From the NCBI RefSeq assembly GCF_023169885.1, contig NZ_AP025516.1, forward strand, positions 1,860,001 through 1,924,000: 64,000 bases of DNA. Direction: 5' to 3'. Below the pieces are notes generated by a model. The model was given only the letters and a program-made list of their open reading frames with translations, was not told the DNA's origin and ran no database searches. Position numbers and translations under genes: made by a program. This document shows positions 58,682 to 64,000 of the stretch, piece by piece; positions within the stretch are counted from its first letter, which is position 1; every line of letters begins with the position of its first letter. Source of the DNA: Desulfofustis limnaeus (GTDB lineage: Bacteria > Desulfobacterota > Desulfobulbia > Desulfobulbales > Desulfocapsaceae).

Positions 58682-58804
58682 TGTCACTTCCTGTCTTACG
58701 CTTTTTGCCGCGCACGCGGACAATCCCTTTGCCATTCCCAGCCGATTCTTTTAGTATGAAAGCTTGTCCATGAACCCCAGCTATTCGAACTCTATATCAT
58801 TGTC

Positions 58805-59410
58805 ATGCAAGGCGCAACGCAAGAAGTTTCGGACCCCTCACCCCTGCTTCGTCTCAAGCTGCAGCCGGAAGACCTGCCGCGTCTGGCCACACTGCTTCAA
58901 GCCGGCTTTTATATCACCGCCGTCGAGGGCGACTCGGTCAGTTCCGTCCTGCAACGGTTGCCCGGTTTCACCCCCGAATACATCGAGCGTGACGTTCAGA
59001 CGATCTTCCTGAACGGCACCGCCATCGATGATCTCTCGGTGCCGCTGACCGGATCGTCAGCCGTTATCGCGCTGTCCGCCGCCATGCCCGGCCTTGCCGG
59101 CGCCATCTTGCGGAAGAACAGCCCGCACGCCTCCCTGCGCCAACCGTTCATCGGCGGACGCAGAACAACCACGGGCAGTCCCCTGGCGGTACAGATCAAA
59201 CTGTTCAATCAACTGGCCGTTGAACGCGGTCCGGAACTGTGCCGTGCCGGCGTGTCCGTCAAGGCCTCCGAGCTGACCTCTTTTTTCAGGCTACGGCCCG
59301 CTCTGGTGCAGGAGCTGCAGCACATCAGCCTGGACGGTGCCCCAGTGACTGTCGCTGAGCTGCTCGACCGGCTCTCGTCCAAGGACCTTGTCACCATGCG
59401 TGCCGCCTGA
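58805..59410 (+). CDS. Hypothetical protein of the aor/moeA operon
   Basis: 201 residues, no signal peptide or membrane helix. Central block ERDVQTIFLNGTAIDDLSVPL followed by IALSAAMPGLAGAILRK looks like a small alpha/beta domain with a Gly-rich loop. The C-terminal part may be a second small domain. Its stop is 2 nt before moeA, so it belongs to the operon. No family I can name with confidence; a role in cofactor delivery to AOR is conjecture from position. Confidence 0.7.
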   Translation: MQGATQEVSDPSPLLRLKLQPEDLPRLATLLQAGFYITAVEGDSVSSVLQRLPGFTPEYIERDVQTIFLNGTAIDDLSVPLTGSSAVIALSAAMPGLAGAILRKNSPHASLRQPFIGGRRTTTGSPLAVQIKLFNQLAVERGPELCRAGVSVKASELTSFFRLRPALVQELQHISLDGAPVTVAELLDRLSSKDLVTMRAA

Positions 59411-59412
59411 TT

Positions 59413-60687
59413 ATGCCCACCACCGAACCCATCCGCGACATGCTCGGCAGACCGGCCCTGACCCCGGTCACTGAAGCTCGCGCCCTACTCCTGGCCCACC
59501 TGCGCGGCCCCGATTCGACCGGCCACCAGCTGCCGTTGCTGGAAGCGCTCGATCGAGTAACCGCCGCCCCGATCATCGCCCCGGAGGACCTGCCACCCGC
59601 CGATCGCTCCACCATGGACGGTTTCGCGGTGATCGCCGCCGACACCTTCGGCGCCTCCCAATCATCCCCCGCCTATCTCGACATCGTCGGCGAGGTGCTG
59701 ATGGGACACCCCCCCTCCGACCGGATCAGACGGGGTACCTGCCAGCGGATTCCCACCGGGGGGCTGCTCCCCGAGGGCGCCGACGGCGTGGTCATGCTTG
59801 AACACACCGTCACCGTGGACGAGACGATGATCGAGGTGGTCCGGGGTATCGGCACCGGCACCAACGTCATCCGCCGGGGTGACGATATCCGTGCCGGCGA
59901 GCCGGCGCTGCCCGCCGGCCACCGACTGCGCCCGCAGGACCTGGGCCTGCTGGCCGGACTCGGAATCGCCGAGGTGACGGTCTACCGCCGCCCCCGCGTC
60001 GCCATCATCGCCACCGGCGATGAAATAGTCGATTATCGCCAGACGGCGGCTGCCGGCCAGATCCGAAACATCAATTCGGTTACCCTGGCCTCGCAGGTCC
60101 AGCGCTGCGGAGCAGTAGCCGTTGATTTCGGCATCGTCTCCGATCGCGAGGAGGTGTTCGTCGCCACCTTGTCCAGGGCCGTCGCCGAAACCGATCTGGT
60201 ACTCTTTTCCGGAGGCAGCTCCGTGGGGGTACGCGACCTCGGCGAACGCGCCTTTGCCCATCTCGGTAAACCCGGCATCATCGTCCACGGAGTCGCCCTC
60301 AAGCCGGGGAAACCGATCCTTATCGGCCTCTGCGAACAGACCCCGATCTTCGGTCTCCCCGGTCATCCGGTCTCAGCCATGGTCTGCTTCGATCTCTTCG
60401 TCAAGCCGGCCCTGTCGACCCTGGCCGGTTTGCCGACCGAGGCCGGCGAGCCACGAGCGACGATCTCGGCGCGTCTTACCCGCAGCATCAACTCGGCAGC
60501 CGGACGCTTGGATGTCATACGCGGCCGTTTATTTCTCGATGAAAACGGCCGGTGGGCCGTACAACCCATTCTCGGCAGGTCCGGCGCCATCTCGACCATG
60601 TCGCGAGCCAACAGCTACTTTCTGATCGAAGAACCAAGCCAAGGCCTGTCTGCCGGTGAAGCGGTGGAGGTATATCTTTATCAATGA
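59413..60687 (+). CDS. moeA: MoeA, molybdopterin molybdotransferase
   Basis: 424 residues, standard length. Domains I/II start LLEALDRVTAAPIIAPEDLPPADRSTMDGFAV; domain III (MoCF_biosynth) contains RPRVAIIATGDEIV, QIRNINSVTLAS, LVLFSGGSSVGVRD and KPGKPILIG, GLPGHPVSAMV. Domain IV follows. It inserts Mo or W into adenylylated molybdopterin. The next gene is a second, divergent MoeA-type gene overlapping by 4 nt, and aor follows, so this pair probably serves the AOR tungsten or molybdenum cofactor. Confidence 0.95.
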   Translation: MPTTEPIRDMLGRPALTPVTEARALLLAHLRGPDSTGHQLPLLEALDRVTAAPIIAPEDLPPADRSTMDGFAVIAADTFGASQSSPAYLDIVGEVLMGHPPSDRIRRGTCQRIPTGGLLPEGADGVVMLEHTVTVDETMIEVVRGIGTGTNVIRRGDDIRAGEPALPAGHRLRPQDLGLLAGLGIAEVTVYRRPRVAIIATGDEIVDYRQTAAAGQIRNINSVTLASQVQRCGAVAVDFGIVSDREEVFVATLSRAVAETDLVLFSGGSSVGVRDLGERAFAHLGKPGIIVHGVALKPGKPILIGLCEQTPIFGLPGHPVSAMVCFDLFVKPALSTLAGLPTEAGEPRATISARLTRSINSAAGRLDVIRGRLFLDENGRWAVQPILGRSGAISTMSRANSYFLIEEPSQGLSAGEAVEVYLYQ

Positions 60688-62609
60688 ATCGACACACCAT
60701 TTACGTGACCAATCAGCCGCTTGCGGCAGCCCGCCGCGCCTGGCAAGAGGCCCTGGAGGAGATCGGTTTTTTCCGGCGCCGGCCCCAGGAAACCGTCAGG
60801 GTTGAACAGGCGCTGGGACGCCTCACCGCCGCACCGGTCTTCGCCCTCCACTCCTCACCGTCCTACCCGGCCGCGGCCATGGACGGCATCGCCCTCTTCT
60901 TTGGCGATTTGTCAACGGCCAGCGAACGTAACCCGGTTATTCTGGGTCCGGACCGTTTCCTTCGGGTCAATACCGGCAACGCCATTGCCGACCGCTTCAA
61001 CGCGGTGGTGATGAGCGAGGACATCCACTGGCTGGACGACGGCCGGGTCGAACTCACCAGCCCGGCCACCCCCTGGCAACATGTCCGGACGGTTGGCGAG
61101 GACATCGTCGCCACCGAACTGATCATTCCCGAAGGGCAAGCAATCCGCCCCATCGACATCGGCGCCATGCTCGCTGCCGGCGTCGTCGAGGTGGCGGTCC
61201 GCCGGCCACCTCGGGTGATCGTCATCCCCACCGGCTCCGAATTGATCGATCCCGGCCAACCGGTGCAACCGGGCCAGATCATCGAGTTCAATTCGCGGGT
61301 TCTCAGCGGTTATCTCAGTGAATGGGGCGCCCATACAGCGGTCCATCCGCCGGTGCCCGACGACCCCGAATTACTGCTCAGAGCCCTCCGGGCGGCGGTC
61401 GAACAGGCCGACGTGGTGATCACCAACGCCGGGGCCTCAGCCGGCAGCAAGGACTTTTCCAACCACGTGATCGGCTCTATGGGCTCCGTCATCGTGCACG
61501 GCGTCGCCATCAAACCGGGCAAGCCGGTCATCCTGGCGACCGCCGGCGAGACGCCGGTCATCGGCCTGCCCGGGTATCCCATCTCGGCGCTGCTGACGCT
61601 GCGGCTCTTCGTCCGTGATATGATCTATGGTTTTCTCGGCAGGGAAACGCCGGCGCCTCGAAATACCGAGGCCATCATGTCGCGGCCGATGCCTTCACCG
61701 ATGGGGGTGGACGAATTTGTCCGCGTCACCCTTGGGCGGGTCGGCGACAACCTCATTGCCACTCCGTCCGGCAAGGGTGCCGGTTCCGTCATGTCCATGG
61801 TCAGAGCCGACGGGATGATCACCATCGGTGCCGGCAGCGAAGGTATCGGTGCCGGCGAACGCGTCCAAGTGGAGTTGCTGCGCCGCCGGAGTGAAGTGGA
61901 CGCCACCCTGGTCATGATCGGCAGCCACGACAACATCCTCGATCTGCTGGCCAACCATCTGCACCGCCTCCACCCGCCGATCCGCCTTTCTTCGGCCCAT
62001 GTTGGTTCGATGGGCGGGATCATGGCGATCAAGCGGGGCGAGGCCCATCTGGCCGGTTCACACTTGCTAGATGAACAGACCGGAGAATACAATATCAGTT
62101 TTATCAAACGATTTCTGCCCAACCTGCCGCTGCGGTTGATCAACCTCTGTTATCGCCAGCAAGGCCTGCTGGTGGCCAAAGGCAATCCGAAGCAGATCAG
62201 CAGCCTGGCCGATATCGCCGAGCGGGGCCTACGCTTCATCAACCGGCAGAAAGGCGCCGGGACCCGACTGTTGACCGATTCCATGCTGCGCGCCACCGGC
62301 CTTGACGCCGACCGGTTAAACGGCTATAATCATGAAGAATATACCCACATGAACATAGCCGCGGCGGTGGCCAGCGGCAGCGCCGATGCCGGTATGGGGA
62401 TCAGGGCTGCAGCGGTGGCGCTCGACGTGGACTTTGTGCCGTTGGTGGAAGAGCGCTACGACCTCATCGTACCTGAGTCGTTTATGCACGACCCGCGCGT
62501 TGGCGCAGCACTCGATCTGATCACCGCAGATGCGGAATGTCGCAACAAGATTATCGGCCTTGGAGGCTATAGCCTCCGGGATGCCGGAACTATCATGTAC
62601 CAGCAATAA
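60684..62609 (+). CDS. MoeA-like protein fused to a PBP-like domain
   Basis: 641 residues. Residues 1-about 405 are a MoeA module: EQALGRLTAAPVF, SSPSYPAAAMDGIA, RPPRVIVIPTGSELID, VVITNAGASAGSKDF, KPGKPVILA, GLPGYPISALLT. From about 415 comes a periplasmic-binding-like (PBP_like) domain: LVMIGSHDNILDLLANHL, HVGSMGGIMAIKRGEAHLAG, FINRQKGAGTRLLTDSML and GMGIRAAAVAL, probably binding an oxyanion or cofactor in the cytosol. Such MoeA-PBP fusions occur in anaerobes; use for tungsten insertion is inferred from the following aor gene. Confidence 0.92.
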   Translation: MNRHTIYVTNQPLAAARRAWQEALEEIGFFRRRPQETVRVEQALGRLTAAPVFALHSSPSYPAAAMDGIALFFGDLSTASERNPVILGPDRFLRVNTGNAIADRFNAVVMSEDIHWLDDGRVELTSPATPWQHVRTVGEDIVATELIIPEGQAIRPIDIGAMLAAGVVEVAVRRPPRVIVIPTGSELIDPGQPVQPGQIIEFNSRVLSGYLSEWGAHTAVHPPVPDDPELLLRALRAAVEQADVVITNAGASAGSKDFSNHVIGSMGSVIVHGVAIKPGKPVILATAGETPVIGLPGYPISALLTLRLFVRDMIYGFLGRETPAPRNTEAIMSRPMPSPMGVDEFVRVTLGRVGDNLIATPSGKGAGSVMSMVRADGMITIGAGSEGIGAGERVQVELLRRRSEVDATLVMIGSHDNILDLLANHLHRLHPPIRLSSAHVGSMGGIMAIKRGEAHLAGSHLLDEQTGEYNISFIKRFLPNLPLRLINLCYRQQGLLVAKGNPKQISSLADIAERGLRFINRQKGAGTRLLTDSMLRATGLDADRLNGYNHEEYTHMNIAAAVASGSADAGMGIRAAAVALDVDFVPLVEERYDLIVPESFMHDPRVGAALDLITADAECRNKIIGLGGYSLRDAGTIMYQQ

Positions 62610-62685
62610 ACCACCGGCCCCAGCACGACCCCTTCACCGGCCCTGCCGGTGAGTGCGACGGCCAGAACAACAAGGAGATGCGACC

Positions 62686-64000
62686 ATGACTGACAGAATC
62701 TACCGGGTCAACATGACCACCCTGACCACCAGTGTCGAACCGGTCCCCCAACAGTGGGCCGGGCTCGGCGGACGCGGGTTGACCTCGACCATCGTTGCCG
62801 CCGAGGTGGCTCCCACCTGCCACCCGCTGGGACCGAACAACAAACTGGTTTTCGCACCCGGCCTGTTGTCCGGCACCGTTGCCGCCAACTCCGGGCGTCT
62901 CTCCGCCGGCGCCAAGAGCCCGCTGACCGGAACCATCAAGGAGGCCAACGCCGGCGGCACCGCCGCCCAACTGTTCGCCCGCTGCGGGTGCAAGGCCCTG
63001 ATCATCGAGGGGCTCCCCACAGACGACAGCTGGTACAGTCTTGCCGTCACCCCGGAAGGAGTGACCATCACTGAGGAAAAGGAACTGGTGGGCCAGGGCA
63101 ACTATACTGTTGCCGAGACCCTGAGCAAACGCTTCGACGGCAAGCGCGGGGTCATCACCATCGGCCCGGCCGGAGAAATGAAACTGCGCGCAGCCAACAT
63201 CTCGGTCATGGATCCCGACGGTAATCTGCGATCCAACGGCCGCGGCGGGCTGGGTGCGGTGATGGGCGCCAAGCGGGTGAAATTCATCTCCATCGACCCG
63301 CAGGGCGGCAAGGTGGAGATCGCCGAACCGGAGGCATTCAAGCAGGCCAATCGGACCTTTGCCAAGGCGCTGGTGAACAACCCCATCAGCCAGACCCTCG
63401 CCACCTATGGCACCAACGTGCTGGTCAATGTCATCAACGAGGCCGGGGCCCTGCCCACCCGGAACTTCACCTCCGGTCAATTTGCCGGACACAACGCCAT
63501 TTCCGGCGAGACCATGCACGACCTCATCGAACAGCGCGGCGGTGTGGTCAAGCATAATTGCCACGCCGGTTGTGTCATTCAATGCTCACAGATTTACAAC
63601 GATATCAACAAAAACTATAAGACCTCCGGGTTTGAGTACGAATCGATCTGGGCCATGGGCGCCGACTGCTGCGTCGAAAATCTCGATGATATCGCCGAGG
63701 CCGACCGCCTGATGGACGACATCGGCATCGACACCATCGAGACCTCGGTGGCCATGGGCGTGGCCATGGAGGCCGGTGTTCTCTCGTTCGGCGACGGCCC
63801 CGGGGTCTGCCGCATGCTGCGGGAAGAGGTGGCCAAGGGAACGCCGCTGGGGCGGATCATCGGCAACGGTGCCGGTTCGGTGGGCACCGCCTTTGGCGTC
63901 ACCCGGGTGCCGGTAGTCAAGAACCAGGCCATACCGGCCTATGATCCCCGTACCGTCAAGGGCATGGCCATCACCTATGCGACCACGCCCATGGGAGCCG
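62686..64000 (+). CDS. aor: Aldehyde:ferredoxin oxidoreductase (3' end outside window)
   Basis: ATG 62686 behind AAGGAG; 438 residues are visible and the frame is open to the window end. The N-terminal domain shows the tungstopterin-binding GGRGLTSTIVA block and FAPGLLSGTVA; further on are SNGRGGLGAVMGAKRVK and the [4Fe-4S] Cys group HNCHAGCVIQC. AOR oxidises aldehydes to acids with ferredoxin and needs a W- or Mo-bispterin cofactor. The two MoeA-type genes in front, with a 76-nt gap to this gene, presumably load the metal. Cytosolic. Confidence 0.93.
   Translation, partial: MTDRIYRVNMTTLTTSVEPVPQQWAGLGGRGLTSTIVAAEVAPTCHPLGPNNKLVFAPGLLSGTVAANSGRLSAGAKSPLTGTIKEANAGGTAAQLFARCGCKALIIEGLPTDDSWYSLAVTPEGVTITEEKELVGQGNYTVAETLSKRFDGKRGVITIGPAGEMKLRAANISVMDPDGNLRSNGRGGLGAVMGAKRVKFISIDPQGGKVEIAEPEAFKQANRTFAKALVNNPISQTLATYGTNVLVNVINEAGALPTRNFTSGQFAGHNAISGETMHDLIEQRGGVVKHNCHAGCVIQCSQIYNDINKNYKTSGFEYESIWAMGADCCVENLDDIAEADRLMDDIGIDTIETSVAMGVAMEAGVLSFGDGPGVCRMLREEVAKGTPLGRIIGNGAGSVGTAFGVTRVPVVKNQAIPAYDPRTVKGMAITYATTPMGA

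Follow-up and report, generated by a model that had tools for sequence, protein, structure and literature searches.

A predicted two-domain, MoaD-like accessory protein associated with one subfamily of aldehyde:ferredoxin oxidoreductases in Desulfobacterota

Operon organization

The window analyzed here, a 64,000-nucleotide stretch of the Desulfofustis limnaeus genome (NZ_AP025516.1, one contig of 4.23 Mb; genome positions 1860001-1924000), ends inside an operon for an aldehyde:ferredoxin oxidoreductase (AOR). The first gene of the group encodes a 201-residue protein, referred to below as U. We find that U is an unclassified AOR-associated accessory protein, two-domain and MoaD-like by prediction and without a carrier tail, and that it is a lineage-specific partner of one AOR subfamily rather than a universal requirement of it. 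Whether U serves as a dedicated maturation or assembly factor for the AOR is, in our estimate, an even call.

The operon comprises five genes, all on the forward strand, in the order U, MoeA, MoeA-PBP, AOR and, past base 64000, a MoaD/ThiS-family gene (Table 1; positions above 64000 were read from the full genome). U and MoeA are separated by 2 nt, MoeA and MoeA-PBP overlap by 4 nt, and 76 nt lie between MoeA-PBP and the AOR, whose start codon, ATG 62686, has AAGGAG ahead of it. The AOR stop codon and the ATG of the MoaD/ThiS gene have one base in common, the last of the stop codon. An original prediction made from the window alone had described the first four genes with this order and these gaps, which is confirmed; position 64000 is merely the window edge, and the sequence beyond it, when read for partners of the AOR, contains the MoaD/ThiS gene and a terminator-like hairpin.

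Table 1. Features of the AOR operon and its flanks (window numbering, genome positions in brackets)
Feature	Position	Strand	Basis
Upstream intergenic stretch, divergent reading frame to U	58736..58804	+	reading frames, promoter scan
U, 201 aa, unclassified, predicted tandem beta-grasp	58805..59410	+	reading frames, model, profiles
MoeA, 424 aa, plain molybdopterin/tungstopterin metal insertase; MoeA_N, MoCF_biosynth, MoeA_C	59413..60687	+	domain matches
MoeA-PBP fusion, 641 aa	60684..62609	+	NF011068/PRK14498 with PF12727
AOR, 575 aa, aldehyde:ferredoxin oxidoreductase large subunit	62686..64413 (genome 1922686-1924413); cut at 64000 by the window edge	+	domains, alignment
MoaD/ThiS-family gene, 74 aa, C-terminal GGG	64413-64637 (genome 1924413-1924637)	+	PF02597 match
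Terminator-like hairpin, 13 pairs, then T run of six	64652-64681		hairpin search

U is probably the first gene of the operon. A divergent reading frame, which by eye we take to be phosphoglycerate-mutase-like, begins 69 nt ahead of its ATG. A weak sigma-70-like match (58729-58757, 9/12) overlaps the start of the intergenic stretch, one being found against 0.3 expected in shuffled sequence. No clear Shine-Dalgarno sequence is seen by eye before U, so its exact start is uncertain. No Rfam family matches at E<=1 between 57000 and 64000, ahead of or within the operon.

The 74-residue MoaD/ThiS protein matches PF02597 with 36.6 bits, above the cut-off, and is the sole match to that family in the 4.23-Mb genome (E<=0.001). 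Many relatives carry at least two PF02597 genes. As the only such gene here, the operon MoaD may also serve molybdopterin synthesis as a whole.

The AOR and the MoeA pair

The part of the AOR within the window matches AFOR_N (205.2 bits) and AFOR_C (163.7 bits). Residues 15-568 of 586 align to AORs of solved structure, with 9mqx and 1aor as the best matches. Thr243, Glu313, Tyr427 and His448 (P. furiosus numbering), whose roles at the cofactor are described in PMC13328260, are all retained in the alignment to 1aor, with positions counted by hand. The four Fe-S cysteines are present as well. Because no gene for an iron-sulfur (Fe-S) small subunit is present among the five genes between 58805 and the hairpin, the AOR fits the single-subunit class I type; it is probably tungsten-dependent.

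MoeA-PBP matches NF011068 over the whole protein (715.7 bits, cut-off 534) and PF12727 with 260.5 bits. It has the same architecture as the NF011068 proteins, the archaeal MoeA1 type (PMC11733289) and DVU0951 of D. vulgaris (PMC10102598), and differs from them in nothing notable apart from its place in an AOR operon. The first of these sources links MoeA-PBP to tungsten and proposes that the PBP domain helps to capture and channel the oxyanion (PMC11733289).

From the presence of two MoeA forms, the original prediction had drawn two alternatives, oxyanion sensing by the PBP domain or a division of labor, with one form handling tungsten and the other molybdenum. The division finds no support. 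The genome has four MoeA_N genes, of which the operon contains two. Both operon MoeAs have Lys in the KPGK motif and Ser 21 residues further on, the second position having been matched by counting, and the tungsten-type changes (Arg at the KPGK Lys, Ala for the oxyanion Ser) are in neither. MoeA1 of Methylorubrum (M. extorquens), a tungsten-type protein, has Arg and Ala at these positions, and the substitutions are linked there to tungsten preference (PMC13197769). Moreover, a D. vulgaris study reports that AOR in that species requires the plain MoeA as well as the one bearing PF12727, that loss of aor or of either moeA gene confers chlorate resistance, and that the two moeA genes have a cofitness of 0.85; its authors regard them as neither metal-specialised nor redundant (PMC10102598). 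The better reading, already known, is that the two MoeA types act together in AOR cofactor synthesis.

Predicted structure of U

The label "unknown" that the original prediction had given to U stands. At E<=0.1, any one Pfam or NCBIfam family has matches in at most 2 of 78 U relatives, and PF02597 is matched by none of the 78 at that threshold. A search of solved-structure sequences with U profile A1 yields a best E of 0.11, and neither a U-like protein nor an experiment on U turned up in the open-access papers searched.

The AlphaFold2 model of U, built with 78 sequences, has a mean predicted local distance difference test (pLDDT) score of 91.0 and a predicted template modeling score of 0.86. 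It consists of strands and helices arranged in two halves, residues 14-102 and 126-200. VIA-align superimposes residues 28-97 onto MoaD (6jc0_A) with a Z score of 5.6 and a root-mean-square deviation of 3.2 over 66 aligned residues, and further MoaD rows follow (1vjk, Z = 4.6; 1fm0_D, Z = 4.4). Beta-grasp proteins, namely SAMP1, an RNF chain and TGS domains, make up most of the other top rows. The top Foldseek row is a chain of a molybdopterin-converting factor, a weak match at E = 0.16. In profile comparisons, the N-terminal half scores 21.4 against 30 MoaD/ThiS sequences, where the best of 140 column shuffles reaches 19.6, and 27.1 against the C-terminal half, where the best of 100 shuffles reaches 17.2. 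These results suggest that the N-terminal half of U is likely a MoaD-like domain, judging from the model, and that U was probably built by duplication of a MoaD-like beta-grasp domain; by extension, the C-terminal half would be MoaD-like as well.

Several results pull against this assignment. The fold matches are weak throughout, with Foldseek E no better than 0.16, Z scores below 6 and an hhalign probability of 16%. When the MoaD/ThiS set is divided, the signal of the N-terminal half drops below its controls, scoring 14.3 against the eight AOR-linked MoaDs alone (best of 60 shuffles 17.6) and 15.6 against the 22 other MoaD/ThiS sequences alone (best shuffle 17.8). The C-terminal half scores 19.7 against the eight AOR-linked MoaDs (best of 60 shuffles 17.4), yet over 9 columns only, and 15.4 and 16.3 against the other two MoaD/ThiS sets (best shuffles 19.1 and 16.2). 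Folded alone, this half reaches a pLDDT of 87.5, and fold searches with the isolated model give no convincing match, although the absence of the MoaD, SAMP and TGS families from its rows does not exclude them.

The fold match also locates the position of the carrier tail. The last residue of MoaD, its terminal Gly, aligns near residue 97 of 201, and the U chain continues for about 104 residues. Because the place of the MoaD C-terminal Gly-Gly is thus internal, U has no usable Gly-Gly tail and would not act as an ordinary sulfur carrier. A C-terminal GG is absent from 76 of the 78 U proteins, and the two exceptions (L059 and L108) have unlike tails. The segment at the place of the MoaD Gly-Gly is strongly conserved. 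When the window protein is compared with those of 55 phylum loci, Pro95 is found in all 56, Gly96 in 55, Gly99 in 55 and Arg112, farther along, in 56; these loci came from a whole-profile search with a profile itself derived from alignment A2, in which the motif AMPGL[AV]GAI is invariant by construction, being the scan pattern.

Peptidase processing is known for some beta-grasp precursors. The conservation of Pro95, Gly96 and Gly99 could thus reflect a sulfur-carrier precursor, in which a cut after the Pro-Gly or Gly at about 95-99 exposes a MoaD-like tail usable by MoeB. We regard this as barely plausible, as a true MoaD ending in GGG is already encoded in the operon, residues of the C-terminal half are conserved too, and the segment is modeled as a helix with a pLDDT of about 75-77. 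No peptidase is encoded among the five genes of the operon, and none was sought elsewhere. A role for U as an Fe-S subunit is also unlikely, since no alignment column has Cys in more than 21 of the 78 sequences.

Distribution of U

U is present in 25 of 58 genomes of relatives and in 58 of 395 Desulfobacterota genomes (profile A2 search). In the phylum searches, the best candidates of each genome were scored, at most eight for U, four for AFOR_C and three for the AOR subfamily (profile A4). A scan of an 84,980-species collection with the motif AMPGL[AV]GAI gave 95 stretches, 88 of them with U relatives; for the 80 stretches listed, the names are Desulfobacterota, other (delta)proteobacterial or unplaced, which, the motif being narrow, sets no limit on the range. 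Three of these 80 loci (L058, L075 and L101) were too short and were kept out of A2. No U match was found in 72,556 sequenced plasmid records (E<=0.01).

Genomes with U invariably carry an AOR domain. Among the relatives, AFOR_C is found in all 25 genomes with U (32 of 58 overall; hypergeometric 2e-10), and it is found in 58 of 58 phylum U genomes, a tally read from the search tables by eye (310 of 395 overall; hypergeometric 2e-7), with kinship ignored in both cases. Where the motif-scan stretch has no AOR (30 loci), all 19 genomes searched carry AFOR_C, though two of the matches are short fragments (G072 and G074). The association is sharper for the AOR subfamily defined by A4 (E<=1e-190), which occurs in 152 of the 395 genomes, namely in 57 of 58 with U and 95 of 337 without it (Fisher p 4e-26, uncorrected for kinship). 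In the 46 genomes holding the closest group of AORs (at least 1043 bits), U is present in 40, and one of the six U-less genomes is just 76% complete.

The AOR tree agrees with this picture. Of the 131 AORs placed in the tree, 88 are labeled as U-linked, and 86 of these fall into one clade with a support of 1.0, together with six of the 43 others. The six are extra copies (L233-L238) from the U-bearing genomes G004, G020, G026, G034, G002 and G027, and the two outlying U-linked AORs both belong to L140, where other kinds of AOR lie near U. One AOR (G011:C180, present in L223 and L240) was entered twice among the 42 sequences labeled unlinked. Members of the clade share the Fe-S cysteine spacing CxxxCxxxC (92 of 92), whereas CxxCxxxC is found in 34 of 39 others; the fourth Fe-S Cys is kept in all 131 AORs. 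Within the 92-member clade, the cofactor-associated Glu, Tyr and His are invariant, and the Thr position holds Thr in 89 and Ser in 3. The D. limnaeus genome contains a second AOR, G000:C1:10489-12294 (L004:10489-12294), which belongs to another clade and likewise has CxxxCxxxC.

At the level of individual loci, 57 phylum loci were compared, the window's own left out. In 43 of them an AOR-family open reading frame (ORF) is no more than 10 kb away from U, on the same strand in 38. This tally includes other kinds of AOR and fragments, such as those in L139 (312 bits), L143 (139 bits) and L157 (a piece of 68 aa where the contig ends). The AOR directly precedes U in 33 loci and U directly precedes the AOR in three, a neighbor counting as direct when -200 to 500 bases separate the ORF edges. 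In the same 10-kb range of the 57 loci, MoaD is found in 29, MoeA in 5 and MoeA-PBP in 4; the corresponding counts for the 80 motif-scan loci are 50 for AOR (47 on the same strand), 47 for MoaD, 48 for MoeA and 49 for MoeA-PBP. AOR, U and MoaD thus form a recurrent set, and the MoeA pair occurs near U mainly in Desulfobulbales. MoeA and MoeA-PBP were considered as core partners of U and rejected on the basis of the phylum counts. The tie between the gene for U and aor anticipated in the original prediction is therefore borne out, and U is not widespread in genomes lacking aor; the tie to moeA is weaker, with U mostly lying away from moeA outside Desulfobulbales.

The frequent placement of U directly behind the AOR on one strand would also fit a small subunit, structural or regulatory, that stays permanently with the mature enzyme. 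A related hint comes from one Desulfobacterota family (f94). In genome G444, a single 445-aa frame, L170:2420-3754 (-), joins U to a fragment of the AOR C-terminal domain (PF01314, 31.6 bits, cut-off 27) that keeps the late cysteine along with the motif of three cysteines and is without the Tyr427/His448 region. A like fragment in genome G333 of the same family, L153:9052-9804 (-), is separate and lies between U and a full AOR (43.2 bits). Although confined to one lineage, the fusion is the strongest hint that U and AOR may be in physical contact, and the Fe-S cysteine motif in the fused fragment is compatible with a stable complex. We consider a permanent subunit doubtful nonetheless, given that many AORs of the same subfamily have no U, that U can lie far from the AOR, and that class I tungsten oxidoreductases (WORs) are described as a single large subunit (PMC13328260).

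Seven Desulfobulbus-like loci (L086, L087, L089, L092, L097, L107 and L109) have U apart from the AOR, in all seven cases beside another conserved gene; a permease-like gene, of the AEC type by eye, adjoins U in six of them.

Comparison with known systems

AOR-linked MoaD genes were described in 2006 (Iyer et al., PMC1779556), and a 2026 report describes a ThiS-like protein, WorX, beside class I WORs, calling its exact function unknown (PMC13328260). The 74-aa gene of our operon fits this type, as it matches PF02597, adjoins the AOR and ends in GGG. U shares the neighborhood and, in its N-terminal half, probably the beta-grasp fold. Unlike WorX, it has 201 residues and probably two domains, does not match PF02597, has no C-terminal Gly-Gly and is present in addition to MoaD.

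Two MoaD-like genes in one AOR operon, aorD and aorE, have been reported in Aromatoleum aromaticum; their products are absent from the purified enzyme and are proposed to be cofactor maturation factors (PMC6365974). The parallel with U is drawn from their description, and the Aromatoleum AOR differs in having three subunits. E. coli YdhW, a 215-aa unknown protein adjoining the AOR homolog YdhV, resembles U in size and position. Hidden Markov model and profile comparisons detect no similarity between the two, and YdhW was dismissed as a homolog.

A further parallel is offered by the AOR itself. Its N-terminal domain, AOR-N (PF02730), comprises two tandem beta-grasp domains that bind the metallopterin and possibly arose from a MoaD-like precursor (Burroughs et al. 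2007, PMC1949818). U, too, has about 200 residues and, by prediction, two tandem beta-grasp copies. It would then be conceivable that U is a free-standing metallopterin holder, whose two MoaD-derived domains keep the tungsten cofactor bound and pass it on to the AOR. If so, U would stand between MoaD and AOR-N in function and perhaps in descent, and the lineage with the U-AOR C-domain fusion would copy the AOR-N/AOR-C layout. We consider this very unlikely. A relationship of U to AOR-N by sequence was rejected, with hhalign giving 13.5 where shuffled controls reach up to 21.1 in 60; AOR chains are not among the fold-search rows shown for U, which does not exclude them.

Proposed role of U

The arrangement of the operon is consistent with a unit that would make and mature one AOR. 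From what is known of these families, MoaD would supply the dithiolene sulfur of the pterin, MoeA and MoeA-PBP would insert the oxyanion, and the single-subunit, class I type AOR would take up the resulting bis-pterin cofactor. U, as an accessory to this AOR subfamily, would bind the apo-AOR, or the AOR together with the cofactor-making partners, and would help in cofactor loading or assembly.

A dedicated maturation factor had been suggested in the original prediction, and the tie to AOR speaks for it. Other observations, however, weaken the case. Among the 152 genomes with the A4 subfamily, 95 have no U, and when 18 AORs from U-less genomes are added to the tree, the U-linked AORs become interleaved with U-less ones, so that this subfamily does not require U in general and the universality of U within it is rejected. 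Genome G347 (G347:C7:12271-12852, in L155) carries U without any AOR of the subfamily. The stretch around U holds no AOR in 14 of the 57 phylum loci and in 30 of the 80 from the motif scan; a number of these are cut by contig ends, and others, such as L087 and L095, are full-length stretches. Finally, in the available part of a D. vulgaris chlorate screen, none of the 15 genes is U-like as named (PMC10102598). MoaD adjoins several of the added U-less AORs. We infer that AOR and MoaD form the older unit and that U is a later addition, gained or lost more than once.

The orphan U loci, including the Desulfobulbus-like type, and G347 would be accounted for if U had no specific link to AOR maturation and were kept nearby for regulation or for another metallopterin enzyme. 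Against such a role, which appears unlikely, stand the association of U with a single AOR subfamily, well beyond what chance would give, its recurrent adjacency across many families and the fusion. The maturation or assembly role retains its even standing. U is a concrete target for knock-out; the chlorate phenotype of aor mutants in Desulfovibrio (PMC10102598) provides a growth assay for AOR maturation. Even apart from its function, U adds an AOR-subfamily-specific protein, found in 58 of 395 Desulfobacterota genomes, that annotation libraries have missed.

Variant forms of U

Two loci deviate from the usual form of the protein. The U encoded at L172:8141-8779 (+) is degenerate, with most of the conserved Pro-Gly..Gly segment gone. 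At L125:6962-10345 (+), the open frame of U continues into a domain that by eye resembles CysQ, reflecting either a fusion or a missing stop codon; the U frames of L146, L156 and L175, from the same family, span just 218-239 aa.

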